Of a DNA stretch of 64,000 bases, positions 29,614-58,132 are shown piece by piece. Position 1 is the stretch's first letter, and every line of letters begins with the position of its first letter. Below the pieces are notes generated by a model, which did not search any database, was not told the origin of the DNA, and saw only the letters and a list, made by a program, of their open reading frames with translations. Origin of the DNA: Atopobium sp. BS2 (GTDB lineage: Bacteria; Actinomycetota; Coriobacteriia; Coriobacteriales; Atopobiaceae); contig NZ_JDFG01000028.1 of the NCBI RefSeq assembly GCF_000565075.1, positions 1-64,000 on the forward strand, read 5' to 3'. A program made the translations under genes and the position numbers.

Positions 29614-32547
29614 TTAAAGCAGCGAGCCAAATCGCTTGACGTAGAGGCTCTTAATTATGGTGATAAGAACCATATACCCGCTCATGAGTGCAGTTAGCCA
29701 TCCAAAGAATGATAAAGGTAGCGCAACAAGACTCAAGGGCTGGGCGAACACCGGCAGATACGGAAGAGCGCTGACCACAATGATTCCCGCAGTGGTTAGA
29801 GCAAGCAGCGATGCCGATGGCATGCTCTGAATAAACGGAATCTTATTGGTTCTGAGCGCGTGGAGAACAAAGGTCTGGGTCCACATGGATTCGATGAACC
29901 AGCCTGTTTGGAAAGACAGAATAAAGAGTGCTTGAGCAGAGGTGTTTCCAGCTGCAGCAAGTTCTGCCCAGGTTCCTCCGGCAAGTGCGGGAGAGACTAC
30001 AAAGAACATGAGGGCAAAGGTCAGCACATCAAAGATTGAACTGATAGGACCAATCCAAAGCATAAAGTTTGTAATTGAATGTGCATCCCAAGAGCGAGGG
30101 CTTGAGAGGAACGAATCGTCAACGTTGTCCCAAGGAATCGCAATGCAGGTAACGGTATATGCAAGACCCAAGAGAAGCAGCTGAAGCGCGCTCATTGGCA
30201 AGAATGGTAGGAAGAAGCTGGCCACCAAAACGGACAGCACGTTACCAAAATTGGAGCTTGCGGTTGCTTTGATGTACTTGATGGTGTTGCCATAGGTTCT
30301 GCGACCCTCTTCAACGCCGTGCTCAAGTACCAGCAGATCCTTCTGCAGCAAAATGATATCAGCGGACTCTTTTGCCACGTCAACAGCGGTGTCAACGGAG
30401 ATTCCTACGTCGGAGGAGCGCATTGCAGCAGCATCGTTGATGCCGTCACCCATGAAGCCGACCACGTGGTTGTTGGACCTGAGTGCAGAGACAACACGAG
30501 CCTTTTGCATAGGGGAAAGCTTTGCAAAGAGCTGGGTCTTCTCGACACGCTCTTTGAGCTGCTCATCGTTAAGGTTCTCTACGTCGCTACCAAGCAAGAG
30601 CTCGTCAACGTGGATACCCACCTTCTTGCAGACGGCAGCGGCAACGCCTTCGTTATCGCCGGTAAGTACCTTGACCTGCACGCCTCTCTGGTTGAGCTTG
30701 GCAATTGCCTCGCGAGCGCTTTCTTTTGGTGGGTCCAAAAAGGCAAGGTAGCCAATGAGTACCATGTCGCGCTCATCGTCTACACCAAACTCGCCGACAC
30801 CACGAGGGTCACTCTTCTGAGCAACGCCAACTACGCGCATGCCTTCCTGATTGAGCTGGTAGACGCGGTCCATAACGTTCTTGCGCTGAGCGGGAGTCAG
30901 CGGTTTGATTTCAGAGTCCAGGTCAACAAAGGAGCATGCGTTGAGGACTTCTTCAACGGCGCCCTTGGTGATCATATGCGTTTTGTTAGTTTTTGTATTT
31001 CTCACTACAACGCTCATGCGGCGACGCTCAAAGTCAAATGGAACCTCGTCGATTTTTTCATACTCAATGCTCAGCAGGTTAGTGGGCAGCTCATCGTTTG
31101 AAGTCTTGATAATTGCCTTGTCAATGAGGTTTCGAAGGCCCGTCTGGAAATAGCTGTTCAGGTACGCATGGCGGAGCACGCGAGGATCCTCTTCGCCCAG
31201 AATGTTGAGGTGGCGCTCAAGCACAACCTCGTCTGCGGTGATGGTGCCGGTCTTGTCGGTGCACAGGATGTCCATAGCGCCCAGGTTCTGGATTGCCGCC
31301 GGGTTCTTGACAATAACGTCCTGCTTGGCCATCTGTGTTCCACCGCGAGAAAGGCAAGTGGTAACAATAACAGGCAACATCTGAGGGGTAATGCCAACGG
31401 CAACAGAAACGCTGAAGAGCAGCGCGTCAAACCAGTCACCCTTAAGGAAACCGTTTGCAAAGAACACAATAGGGCACATGATTAGCATGAACGAGACAAG
31501 TACCTTAGAGACGGATTTGAGACCCTCGTCAAAGCTGGTCTCGCCAGAAGGTTGCTGAAGCAGCTCGGACATAGTGCCTACGTAGGTTTTATTGCCTGTT
31601 GTAATTACCACTACCGTTGCACTTCCCGACTGAACGGTAGTACCGGCAAACAGCAGGTTTGTGCACTCAGAGAGCGAGAGGGGATAGCGTGTACCATCCG
31701 CGCGACGGCGAGCGTGCACTACACCAGCAGTTTTCTCGACGGACTCTGATTCTCCGGTGAGCGCAGTCTCGTTGACAAAGAGGTCCTTGGCGTCCAGAAC
31801 GCGGCAGTCTGCAGGAATCATGTCTCCCGAGGCAAGGCGGATGATATCGCCAACGACTACCTGTTCAAAGGGGATCTCTTCTCCCAGAGCAGAAGCAAGC
31901 TTGGGCTCTTCAGGAGCTTCCTCTTCATCGGCAGCGTCTTCGGCGTAGTCGGCAGCTTCATCTGCGGCGTATTCATCAGCAGCGTCATCCTCGAAGTCCA
32001 CGGCGGCATTTACGGCGTCATTCGAGCCCTGTTCAACGCCCTGGTCCACACCCGAGTCATTAAAGTCGATGGGACGACGGATTACTCTTGTCGTTGAGGT
32101 TACCATTTTGGAGAGCGCGGCCGCTGCCGAGGCTCCCTTGGAGCTCTGGACAAAGTCGATGATGCCGGAGATAAGCACCATTGCGGTGATGATGACGACG
32201 GTTGACGGGTCCTTCTCGCCATCTGCGGCAAGGGCCACGTTAGTGACGTAAGAAATGCCTGCGAGCGCAATCAAAATGAAGGTGAAGGGGCTTGCAAAGC
32301 TTTTGAGCAGGCGGATGATAAAGGGCTCCTCAGCGGCACTGGTGATAACGTTTGGGCCGTCGAGGTCGTATTTTGCCTGCGCAATGTCAATGGCAAGGCC
32401 GTCCGGGGTGGTATGGAACTTTCTACAGACGCTCTTTACCGAGTGTGTTGCGGCAAAGGTCAATGACTGTCCAAGCTCTCCCGAGGTGGTCTGAGCTGTC
32501 TTTGTTTGGGTTGTCTTTGTTTGAGTTGTGCGCTTCATGATTGCCAT
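29614..32547 (-). CDS. mgtA: Magnesium-translocating P-type ATPase
   Basis: 977 residues, somewhat longer than the usual ~900. Core motifs: TGES (LTGESESVEKT), phosphorylation site CTDKTGT (~428), MITKGAVEEV, VLTGDN and GDGINDAAAMRSSDVGISVD, followed by the six-helix C-terminal block. It imports Mg2+ (or Ni2+) across the membrane. Two oddities: the N terminus carries a TTQTKTTQTKTAQTT repeat, and an acidic insert (~residues 162-214, e.g. EYAADEAADYAEDAADEEE) interrupts the actuator domain. ATG 32547 has GGAGG 5 nt upstream; a GTG two codons earlier overlaps that site. A leader ORF lies ~190 nt upstream. Confidence 0.92.
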   Translation of the reverse strand: MAIMKRTTQTKTTQTKTAQTTSGELGQSLTFAATHSVKSVCRKFHTTPDGLAIDIAQAKYDLDGPNVITSAAEEPFIIRLLKSFASPFTFILIALAGISYVTNVALAADGEKDPSTVVIITAMVLISGIIDFVQSSKGASAAAALSKMVTSTTRVIRRPIDFNDSGVDQGVEQGSNDAVNAAVDFEDDAADEYAADEAADYAEDAADEEEAPEEPKLASALGEEIPFEQVVVGDIIRLASGDMIPADCRVLDAKDLFVNETALTGESESVEKTAGVVHARRRADGTRYPLSLSECTNLLFAGTTVQSGSATVVVITTGNKTYVGTMSELLQQPSGETSFDEGLKSVSKVLVSFMLIMCPIVFFANGFLKGDWFDALLFSVSVAVGITPQMLPVIVTTCLSRGGTQMAKQDVIVKNPAAIQNLGAMDILCTDKTGTITADEVVLERHLNILGEEDPRVLRHAYLNSYFQTGLRNLIDKAIIKTSNDELPTNLLSIEYEKIDEVPFDFERRRMSVVVRNTKTNKTHMITKGAVEEVLNACSFVDLDSEIKPLTPAQRKNVMDRVYQLNQEGMRVVGVAQKSDPRGVGEFGVDDERDMVLIGYLAFLDPPKESAREAIAKLNQRGVQVKVLTGDNEGVAAAVCKKVGIHVDELLLGSDVENLNDEQLKERVEKTQLFAKLSPMQKARVVSALRSNNHVVGFMGDGINDAAAMRSSDVGISVDTAVDVAKESADIILLQKDLLVLEHGVEEGRRTYGNTIKYIKATASSNFGNVLSVLVASFFLPFLPMSALQLLLLGLAYTVTCIAIPWDNVDDSFLSSPRSWDAHSITNFMLWIGPISSIFDVLTFALMFFVVSPALAGGTWAELAAAGNTSAQALFILSFQTGWFIESMWTQTFVLHALRTNKIPFIQSMPSASLLALTTAGIIVVSALPYLPVFAQPLSLVALPLSFFGWLTALMSGYMVLITIIKSLYVKRFGSLL

Positions 32548-32736
32548 GTGCACCTCCGATGATTAGCGAAAACGAATGACTAACTGGTTGGTGTATGACG
32601 CAAACTGAAAGCGTTCTGTTATGTGCGGGACTTGAAACCGGATGATCCGAAACCGGGCACATAGATTCATATATCTACAGGATTGCTCTATAAACCTGCA
32701 AATTTATATCCCTATAGGCTTGCGGTGCAGTAAAAA

Positions 32737-32835
32737 TTAAAGCTTTTGAATAAGAGGTTTCTTTATATCCGTCACACATAAATGAACAGGGTCAGCATCT
32801 GCTGTCAGACGTAAGCTGCTACTTCGACTAGGCAT
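32737..32835 (-). CDS. 32-residue leader peptide upstream of mgtA
   Basis: A short ORF with an excellent ribosome site (TAAGGAGGTG, 7-8 nt before ATG) encodes MPSRSSSLRLTADADPVH followed by a short basic tail ending in KPLIQKL. It lies in the long mgtA leader, on the same strand, with ~190 nt of structured A+T-rich RNA between its stop and mgtA. Enterobacterial mgtA uses a proline-containing leader peptide (MgtL) plus a riboswitch for Mg2+ sensing, so a similar attenuator role is the natural guess. No M-box consensus was recognised. Confidence 0.55.
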   Translation of the reverse strand: MPSRSSSLRLTADADPVHLCVTDIKKPLIQKL

Positions 32836-32941
32836 ATAAAGCACCTCCTTATATTGGAGTTCTGCAAGGGACGTCCAGTAAAGCGTGGCATCTTGCGATG
32901 GACGGACGTCACGTCTATTCAGACATCTCTAAGAGTAGTTG

Positions 32942-32962
32942 GGTTGACGACTTTGGTCAACC
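32942..32962. promoter_or_regulatory. 7-bp inverted repeat upstream of rbsK
   Basis: GGTTGAC and GTCAACC flank a 7-nt spacer in the divergent mgtA/rbsK region. It is a possible operator for either unit. The remaining gap to rbsK shows no other gene. Confidence 0.4.
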
Positions 32963-33115
32963 TATTACTATATATCTTATAAATAACGTGTTTAATCTGC
33001 GTATTTATTTGCCGCGATATGGCGAGAAACCCTGTCGAGCAGTAACGCAGAGAAGAAACGACAAGCAGAACGACCAAACGCCGTACACAGCACTCTTGCT
33101 AAGAAGGAGCATCTC

Positions 33116-34036
33116 ATGGGCAAAGTAATTGTATTTGGAAGCTTGAACATGGATATCTCCATCGAGGCCGATAAGATGCCTCAGCAGGGCGAGACTATTG
33201 GCGGCAAAAATCTTGTCACCAGCCCAGGCGGAAAGGGCGCTAATCAGGCAGTTGCTGCGGCTCGAATGGGCGCGGACGTTCACATGATTGGCGCGGTTGG
33301 CGCTGACTCGTTCGGACAAGACCTCAAGCAGTCGCTTATTGGCTACGGGGTCAATGCAGAGCAGGTAGATGAGCTGTCTGGAGTCTCCACGGGTGTTGCT
33401 GTGATCGTGCGCGTGGGCGGCGATAACCGTATCATTTTGGACCACGGCGCTAATTACGTTCGCACAACCGACGACGTGAAAGCGGTGCTCGATCGCATTG
33501 CAGAGCCAGGAGATGTGTTCTTGACGCAGTTTGAGTGCGAGTTGTCGACTACGTTTGAGCTTATCAGATACGCACATGAGCTGGGACTCTATACGATGGT
33601 GAACCCATCGCCATCGGCCACCATGACCACCGGTCTTCTCGCCAGCGTGGACGTGCTTTGCCTGAACGAGATTGAGTTTGCAGATTTGTTTGGCGAGGGC
33701 AAGATTAGCCCGCTGGCAGATCCCGAGGCTGCGGTGCAGAAGGTGCTTGCAAGTGGCGTGGCTACTGCGGTGTTGACGCTGGGGTTCAAGGGCTCCATTG
33801 CTGCTGACTCGCACGGCGTGTACCAGCAGGAATGCTACCACGTGGACACCGTGGACACTACCTGTGCGGGCGACACGTTTATGGGTACGCTTGCTGCGTT
33901 CCAGGCATCGGGGCAGCTAGAGGGGCACGACATCAAGCGGGCGCTTGACGTGGCCGCGAAGGCCGCAGCGCTCGCTACCACTAAGGTTGGCGCTCAGCAA
34001 TCAATTCCAACGTATCGGCAGGTAGTTGAGTTTTAG
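33116..34036 (+). CDS. rbsK: Ribokinase
   Basis: 306 residues of the PfkB family. N-terminal VIVFGSLNMDISIEADKMPQQGETI and GGKGANQAVAAARMG form the ribose-binding motif; DTTCAGDTFMGTLAAF near residue 245 is the second PfkB signature with the catalytic Asp. It phosphorylates ribose to ribose-5-phosphate. The nucleoside hydrolase downstream would supply ribose, so the two act in nucleoside salvage. AAGGAG precedes ATG 33116. Confidence 0.92.
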   Translation: MGKVIVFGSLNMDISIEADKMPQQGETIGGKNLVTSPGGKGANQAVAAARMGADVHMIGAVGADSFGQDLKQSLIGYGVNAEQVDELSGVSTGVAVIVRVGGDNRIILDHGANYVRTTDDVKAVLDRIAEPGDVFLTQFECELSTTFELIRYAHELGLYTMVNPSPSATMTTGLLASVDVLCLNEIEFADLFGEGKISPLADPEAAVQKVLASGVATAVLTLGFKGSIAADSHGVYQQECYHVDTVDTTCAGDTFMGTLAAFQASGQLEGHDIKRALDVAAKAAALATTKVGAQQSIPTYRQVVEF

Positions 34037-57785: not shown

Positions 57786-57959
57786 TTGAAGCGTGCACGC
57801 GGCTGATGTGTGTGGCTGAGTTGTGCGTAGCTGCTTAGCCGCCCTTCTCGTCAAATTTTTGTGAAGAGAAAGAAATTGCGCGCTCAACCTTGACTTGGAT
57901 AGTTTTTTGCTGCACAATATCCAACGCAAGACAGACGTCTTGTAGTTGCACGTTCGCTG

Positions 57960-58072
57960 CCAAAGACAGCCGGCGCCTTGAATCCAAGGCTTAATGGGAA
58001 TTCCCGCCTGCCGAGGTGGTCTTGAGATTAGTACATCCAGACCCCGCTTTGGTTGCCAAAGTGGGGTCTTTT
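57960..58072 (+). ncRNA. L10(L12)4-type ribosomal leader with attenuator
   Basis: CGCCTTGAATCCAAGGCTTA followed by GGGAATTCCCGCCTGCCGAG resembles the conserved L10-leader kink-turn region. A strong terminator hairpin follows: GACCCCGCTTTGG (58040-58052) with its complement at 58056-58068 and TTTT. L10-L12 complex binding would control read-through into rplJ-rplL. Confidence 0.75.
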
Positions 58073-58132
58073 CATGTGAGGGCCGCACCTGTTGGCGCTC
58101 GTGCCCGAGACATGATAAAGGAGGTGTACTAC

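Follow-up and report, generated by a model that had tools for sequence, protein, structure and literature searches.

In a 64,000-nucleotide (nt) stretch of the genome of Atopobium sp. BS2 (contig NZ_JDFG01000028.1, positions 1 to 64,000; hereafter the window, meaning the whole stretch of DNA that was analysed), a short open reading frame (ORF) on the minus strand precedes mgtA, the gene for a Mg2+ importer. The existence of this 32-codon leader and its conservation were confirmed, and by its sequence features it has many counterparts, in Coriobacteriia, in Bacillota and at some of the M-box loci of other Actinomycetota. Its anatomy resembles that of MgtL and mgtQ; therefore, we favour a ribosome-sensing leader of the MgtL/MgtQ type, in which translation of the ORF would act in cis to set the expression of MgtA, and give the reading a probability of about 0.6. 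The original prediction, made from the letters of the window, had suggested translation-dependent control of Mg2+ uptake. What stands of it is a conserved leader tied to mgtA, without an M-box; the control itself would follow by analogy. We infer that the leader is translated; a dependence on Mg2+, a ribosome that drops off or pauses, and the sign and output step of the response are likewise presumed parts of that control.

A conserved leader ORF ahead of mgtA

The leader ORF (MPSRSSSLRLTADADPVHLCVTDIKKPLIQKL; 32 codons, 99 nt including the stop) occupies positions 32835-32737 of the minus strand, where it had been predicted, and lies at a spacing of 6 nt from its Shine-Dalgarno (SD) sequence TAAGGAGGTG (32842..32851), an exact 10-nt match. 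Previously counted among the best ribosome sites of the window, this SD is the longest match of all, ranking first of the 70 start sites with at least six matched bases in the 64 kb. The gene downstream, at 29614..32547 on the same strand, encodes a 977-residue product that matches the Mg2+-translocating P-type ATPase family TIGR01524 at 1028.5 bits (cut-off 610.75). The leader is placed 288 nt upstream of mgtA, and 189 nt separate its stop codon from the mgtA ATG at 32547, in agreement with the ~190 nt described earlier; the A+T-richness also claimed for this RNA is mild, at 43% G+C versus 53% and 52% in the two halves of the window. None of the 18 other window genes with clear upstream DNA is preceded by a short ORF with a strong SD.

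Conservation in close relatives, on which the original prediction had made its case depend, was found: a strong-SD leader ORF is at the same place in all five genomes of the genus sample, namely the window's own (G000), G023, G024, G025 and G026. These represent three distinct leader regions, because G025 and G026 are near-identical (2 nt differences in about 800) and the window and G023 are close. The peptide begins MPSRSSS in the window genome and G023, and MSDHSRS in the other three. The full peptide is common to the window and G023 alone (one residue differs), little beyond SRS near the start being kept in the others, and DNA similarity in the leader region is limited to G023 (2 of 140 family genomes, including the window's own). 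The proposed comparison of peptide with synonymous change was made for this pair: the two leaders differ at 1 of 99 nt, a non-synonymous change in the last sense codon, versus 135 of 483 four-fold sites in mgtA, and at mgtA's rate of synonymous codon change the identity of 31 of the 32 leader sense codons would arise by chance with a probability of ~7e-5. Constraint on codons in this one close pair argues against a trans-acting small protein with a function of its own, for example in regulating how stable MgtA is. Although a recurrent N-terminal motif and a strong SD would suit such a protein, the C-terminal parts and the lengths of the leaders (18-60 codons outside Proteobacteria) diverge between lineages, and we consider this explanation very unlikely.

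The earlier statement that the peptide has no obvious stalling run requires revision, as it overlooked two stretches. Codons 3-7, AGT CGA AGT AGC AGC (32815..32829, minus strand), encode SRSSS and carry the codon signature of the leader set described below, and codons 13-16 (32788..32799, minus strand) encode DADP, an acidic/proline stretch.

The wider leader set, its early codons and its RNA pairing

Matches to mgtA were present in 66 of 140 family genomes and in 102 of 396 class genomes, to which further upstream stretches were added, together with the best 80 of 577 mgtA relatives on named contigs, from one scan. To be counted, a leader had to be an ATG ORF of 8-60 codons that starts no more than 450 nt upstream of mgtA and is preceded by an SD of 7 nt or longer. 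Such an ORF is found in 78 of the 102 upstream regions of Coriobacteriia (reverse strand 0/102; shuffles 5/1020), in 19 of 56 regions of the Bacillota group (reverse strand 1/56; shuffles 8/560), and in 0 of 18 regions of the proteobacterial group, of which 5 have one with an SD of 6 nt. These region counts are not de-duplicated, unlike the codon counts below. The Bacillota group includes a few other bacteria (one Treponema) and the proteobacterial group one Acidobacteriota; three loci (L018, L040 and L069) are outside the three groups. Before counting, L110 (no start found), L123 (20 nt upstream) and loci with less than 300 nt upstream, including L028 and L056, were dropped. The 88 leaders called in Coriobacteriia represent 78 distinct ORFs, and L010 and L158, which have the same leader, may be one genome. 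For the counts of codons, pairing and footprints below, the choice of leader relied solely on its SD and start codon, and some picks are probably wrong (at L126 and L131 a nearby GTG start fits the motif). A general-gene control gave 4/81 in Bacillota, one of the four being an mgtA leader (L020); for Coriobacteriia it was unusable, since its 25 hits among 65 look, by peptide and position, like mgtA leaders from short loci. In one relative, two mgtA-like genes stand in tandem (G021:C2:319792-325027).

Typical leaders begin MSDGSHAR, MNDRSSD, MEGSHSRK, MDAGSSNG, MEEGSSK or MDSDGSP. Positions 2-5 include an acidic residue in 43 of the 50 representatives of Coriobacteriia and in 24 of the 28 of Bacillota type, versus 3/50 and 5/28 for mgtA itself; AGT lies within codons 2-10 in 33/50 and 20/28, and is combined with an early acidic residue in 31/50 and 18/28. 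The window leader shares with this set the strong-SD ORF, the early AGT and CGA codons and the pairing of its ribosome binding site (RBS) with a distal segment, and lacks the early acidic residue.

AGT serine codons, which are wobble-read, account for 79 of 132 serines, and CGA for 23 of 49 arginines, in codons 2-10 of 64 distinct Coriobacteriia leaders. A general 5'-end bias is no explanation for these values, because AGT accounts for 0/39 serines and CGA for 3/51 arginines at the starts of 58 other genes in these loci; at the starts of mgtA AGT makes up 1 of 44 serine codons, and over mgtA as a whole AGT and CGA are each at 4%. For Bacillota-type leaders AGT accounts for 37 of 53 serines versus 20 of 64 in 116 other gene starts. 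The gene-start controls of both groups are free of P-type ATPases and replaced a version in which these were mixed in (55/113 and 53/169). By frame, AGT occurs 79 times in frame and 0 and 1 times elsewhere in Coriobacteriia, and 37, 3 and 1 times in Bacillota. The window leader has two AGT codons and one CGA codon within codons 2-10, the only one of the 70 window sites with two AGT there, and a codon profile built from 93 leaders, with the genus left out, ranked it first of 346 starts (14.2, the next scoring 11.0). Given the counts of the set against its controls, the ranks by SD and by codon profile, and the conservation, a chance origin of the leader is very unlikely.

Early placement of these codons in Coriobacteriia (AGT mainly at codons 2-8, CGA at 4-8) would also be expected of classical attenuation responding to the charging of tRNA-Ser or tRNA-Arg instead of to Mg2+. 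However, the gene downstream encodes a Mg2+ importer, and the TCN serine codons are scarce (26/132), which serine starvation alone would not favour; we regard attenuation of this type as very improbable.

Across the leader set, the leader RBS shows complementarity to a stretch that lies ~25-140 nt past the start codon, at or below 5% of shuffles in 28 of 35 Bacillota leaders and 0 of 7 in the proteobacterial group. In a swap test, in which each lineage's RBS was also set against the targets of the others and the means of rows and columns were subtracted, the cognate combination of RBS and distal arm was favoured by -3.56 kcal/mol in 50 Coriobacteriia and by -5.41 kcal/mol in 28 Bacillota-type leaders (0/5000 permutations each), and a control with the region upstream of the RBS gave 408/2000 in Coriobacteriia. 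The pairing of the RBS with the leader's own distal part was thereby shown to covary across lineages. In the window, arm 1 comprises the leader RBS (32830..32850) and arm 2 a distal, anti-RBS segment of the leader (32751..32771), both on the minus strand, with a predicted duplex of -19.2 kcal/mol. Arm 2 is identified by the fold, by the swap test, in which the cognate pair ranks 4 of 50 with a residual of -6.7 kcal/mol, and, more weakly, by single-sequence shuffles (7/100 as good).

RNA ahead of mgtA and how the leader might act

The distal half of the window leader (32741..32800) is predicted to form an alternative helix with intergenic RNA at 32596..32655 (duplex -36.0 kcal/mol; residual -19.1 in the swap test), exclusive with the pairing of arms 1 and 2; the intergenic partner, indicated by the fold and the swap test, is partly conserved in G023. 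Across Coriobacteriia, the distal half and the intergenic RNA covary weakly (16/2000; 44/2000 without the window's genus). In Bacillota, covariation with downstream RNA is seen both for the mgtA RBS and for the early leader codons (0/2000 each), and the intergenic targets of the two overlap in 12 of 17 loci versus 7.6 expected (Coriobacteriia, 21 of 44 versus 18.1), a modest excess. Also predicted, all on the minus strand, are a 21-bp intergenic hairpin without a U-tract (32657..32719), a short hairpin over the mgtA SD (32551..32593; 32593-32587 with 32557-32551), drawn from the fold alone, and a hairpin at the 5'-proximal end of the predicted transcript (32870..32910; helix 32910-32903/32877-32870) whose arms are largely kept in G023.

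Transcription had been considered as a possible objection, in that the start site might lie downstream of the ORF. Instead, a promoter-like site, TTGACC-N17-TACTCT at 32932..32960 on the minus strand, lies upstream, with a predicted start site near 32926; its form TTGACC-N17-TACNCT is found 65-82 nt 5' of the leader SD in all five genus genomes and just once in the 64 kb, both strands taken together. An inverted repeat, GGTTGAC-N7-GTCAACC, covers the -35 element at 32942-32962 and is kept in G023; it is a possible operator. In G024 (locus L092), a terminator-like hairpin with a T-run stands between the promoter-like site and the leader, ending 41 nt before the leader ATG; at the matching place in the window there is a hairpin that lacks a T-run. 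The stretch between leader and mgtA in the window yielded no intrinsic terminator.

The original prediction, which recognised no M-box ahead of mgtA, agrees with our scans: none was found in the window at the Rfam gathering score, in a lax scan of 32400-33120, or in the 140 family genomes, these last searched with stricter filters by which weak matches are lost. Elsewhere in the window, a ribosomal protein L10 leader (RF00557) at 57942-58081 scores barely over its gathering score.

Masking the footprint of an initiating ribosome on the leader lowered the predicted accessibility of the mgtA RBS from 0.58 to 0.42 in the window and from 0.37 to 0.16 in G023, a modelled drop that might just fit a state in which an occupied leader keeps mgtA off. 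With a ribosome at codon 8, accessibility in Bacillota fell in 10 of 28 leaders and rose in 2, and other states were mixed. Two further roles for leader segments were considered. Early codons as an RNA pairing element fit Bacillota and were rejected for Coriobacteriia, and a second role for the anti-RBS arm, in masking the RBS of mgtA, was unsupported.

Several results weigh against a ribosome-sensing leader, in the window or in its class. The window leader opens MPSRS and has no acidic residue at positions 2-5, the first being D13; the G023 leader lacks an early acidic residue as well. In Coriobacteriia, 24 of the 102 upstream regions have no leader at the threshold used. Taken alone, the 13 four-fold sites of the leader give the synonymous conservation a probability of 1.4e-2 by chance, with one genome pair as the basis. 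CGA is not bound to frame (23, 3 and 34 by frame), and other common codons are mostly in frame too (GGC, for example, at 24, 1 and 1), so that frame bias by itself carries less weight than the choice of codon; in Bacillota, RNA pairing may partly explain the AGT codons. Tested one at a time, just 34 of 79 leaders of Coriobacteriia pair as well as or better than 95% of their own shuffles, and the swap-test control in Bacillota, at 83/2000, is itself near significance. Neither the mgtA RBS with intergenic RNA (177/2000) nor leader codons 4-12 with downstream RNA (1748/2000) covary significantly in Coriobacteriia. Footprint masking left mgtA RBS accessibility unchanged in G025 and G026 and had no consistent direction among 50 Coriobacteriia: per state, it rose by more than 0.1 in 4-6 and fell by as much in 1-3. 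Finally, RNAalifold gave no consensus hairpin for 29 aligned Coriobacteriia leaders (2 pairs, -0.16 kcal/mol); the swap test was chosen after it because the arms shift in register.

The inconsistent effect of the footprint across the class would suit a passive translational coupler or standby site, with no sensing at all; however, the 189-nt gap in the window and the specific signature of codons and RBS pairing are hard to reconcile with such an element, which we judge highly improbable. Less easily dismissed, though still unlikely, is an RNA that itself senses Mg2+, with the ORF a by-product or a mere expression platform. The covarying RBS pairing would serve such a switch, the 351-nt stretch of leader plus spacer folds better than most of its shuffles (z -2.2, 4/100 as good), and 16 of the 21 Bacillota-type loci scanned have an M-box ahead of the leader. 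Against it are the choice of AGT for serine in codons 2-10, together with its frame, the RNAalifold result just given, and the lack of an Rfam match in this region of the window.

Returning to a ribosome-sensing leader, the mechanism that we propose would run as follows. The leader RBS would be masked by the distal coding part of the same leader (a 1:2 pairing), which in the window genome could pair instead with the RNA that precedes mgtA (2:3). On entering the leader, a ribosome would meet unusual early AGT and CGA codons, accompanied in most of the relatives examined by acidic residues at positions 2-5. Low Mg2+ might destabilise or pause the ribosome at these early codons, as reported for MgtL and MgtQ, and the RNA would thereby be left in a form that permits mgtA expression. 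In Bacillota-type loci, the output could arise if early leader codons compete with the mgtA RBS for a single intergenic segment. For the window's class, Rho is one candidate for the output step; one protein of the window genome scores above the Rho cut-off.

M-box loci and the closest known leaders

The M-box riboswitch (RF00380) likewise mediates Mg2+ control of transporters, and, although it is found neither in the window nor in the 140 family genomes, it shares loci with leaders of this kind elsewhere. M-boxes are present in 16 of 29 loci scanned, all of them among the Bacillota-type loci, and end 80-314 nt before the leader in 15 loci and 793 nt before it in L051. Within the phylum, 21 of 296 genomes have M-boxes, and 25 such loci were examined. 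In two (L204 and L206), the M-box is followed by an MESDPG leader and then an Nramp-type gene, and RBS self-pairing is strong (0/100 shuffles). Three others (L202, L221 and L224) have upstream ORFs (uORFs) beginning MSSSDSP, MSPGDSP and MSPGDSP, with AGT codons and Pro7; downstream lie a PE-domain ORF in L221 and an Nramp-type gene in L224. With the PE-domain ORF downstream of one, these three loci are probably mycobacterial. In the remaining 20 of the 25, no such leader was noted, an SD threshold of 6 nt being one that may miss some.

These loci raise the possibility, which we advance tentatively and hold to be somewhat improbable as a whole, that a single ribosome-sensing leader family, marked by early AGT serines next to acidic residues or prolines, and in many cases by an RBS that masks itself, governs Mg2+ importers in Coriobacteriia, Bacillota and M-box loci of other Actinomycetota, the mycobacterial uORF included. 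It would then be decoding, or the stability of the ribosome, at these codons that senses low Mg2+, whether or not an M-box stands in front. Enterobacteria are known to control Mg2+ uptake by leader peptides; if the proposal is true, such control extends to a wider class, in many cases placed behind an M-box, in which the AGT signature ties Mg2+ sensing to the decoding of particular codons, and the mycobacterial uORF gains a testable role. The original prediction held that MgtL-like control is not described in this lineage, and we found no mgtA leaders of this kind beyond enterobacteria and their relatives in the literature searched, which covered few subscription papers. The small ORF in the available text of PMC4072509 is an MgtE-like fragment and a separate matter.

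MgtL of Salmonella and E. coli is, like the window leader, a short ORF within the mgtA 5' region, and the available part of one report (PMC11282234) attributes its Mg2+ control to ribosome stability at an acidic/proline start, low Mg2+ favouring ribosome loss at EPDP and EttA countering it. The window genome has two proteins above the EttA (TIGR03719) cut-off (G000:C19:21852-23507 and G000:C5:1347-3002). An early EPDP-type motif is absent from the window leader, in which the DADP at 13-16 may be comparable by analogy. An acidic/proline start recurs in the MDPDPTPL leaders of two Serratia loci (L081 and L083), which have no AGT codon, and among seven proteobacterial-group loci complementarity between RBS and distal arm does not exceed chance (median z 0.14).

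Rv1805A is described, in the portion available of PMC12810186, as uORF2 behind the mycobacterial M-box, conserved, with a strong SD and Pro7 and without an assigned role. Pro7 recurs in the three M-box-locus leaders described above; these differ from the wider set in that their RBS self-pairing is not above shuffles (29, 50 and 61 of 100).

The last comparison is with mgtQ, located between mgtC and mgtB in Salmonella, for which experiments in the available text of PMC8092293 show that Asp2/Glu5 and alternative stem-loops free the mgtB RBS. With 8 codons and a position inside an operon (PMC8092293), it differs from the window leader, for which release of the mgtA RBS is not predicted; its stem-loops 1:2 and 3:4 alternate with 2:3 (PMC8092293), and pairings 1:2 and 2:3 are predicted for the window. 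What the two appear to share, going by the same text (PMC8092293), is a strong SD, a Mg2+ P-type ATPase and, presumably, control at the level of translation.

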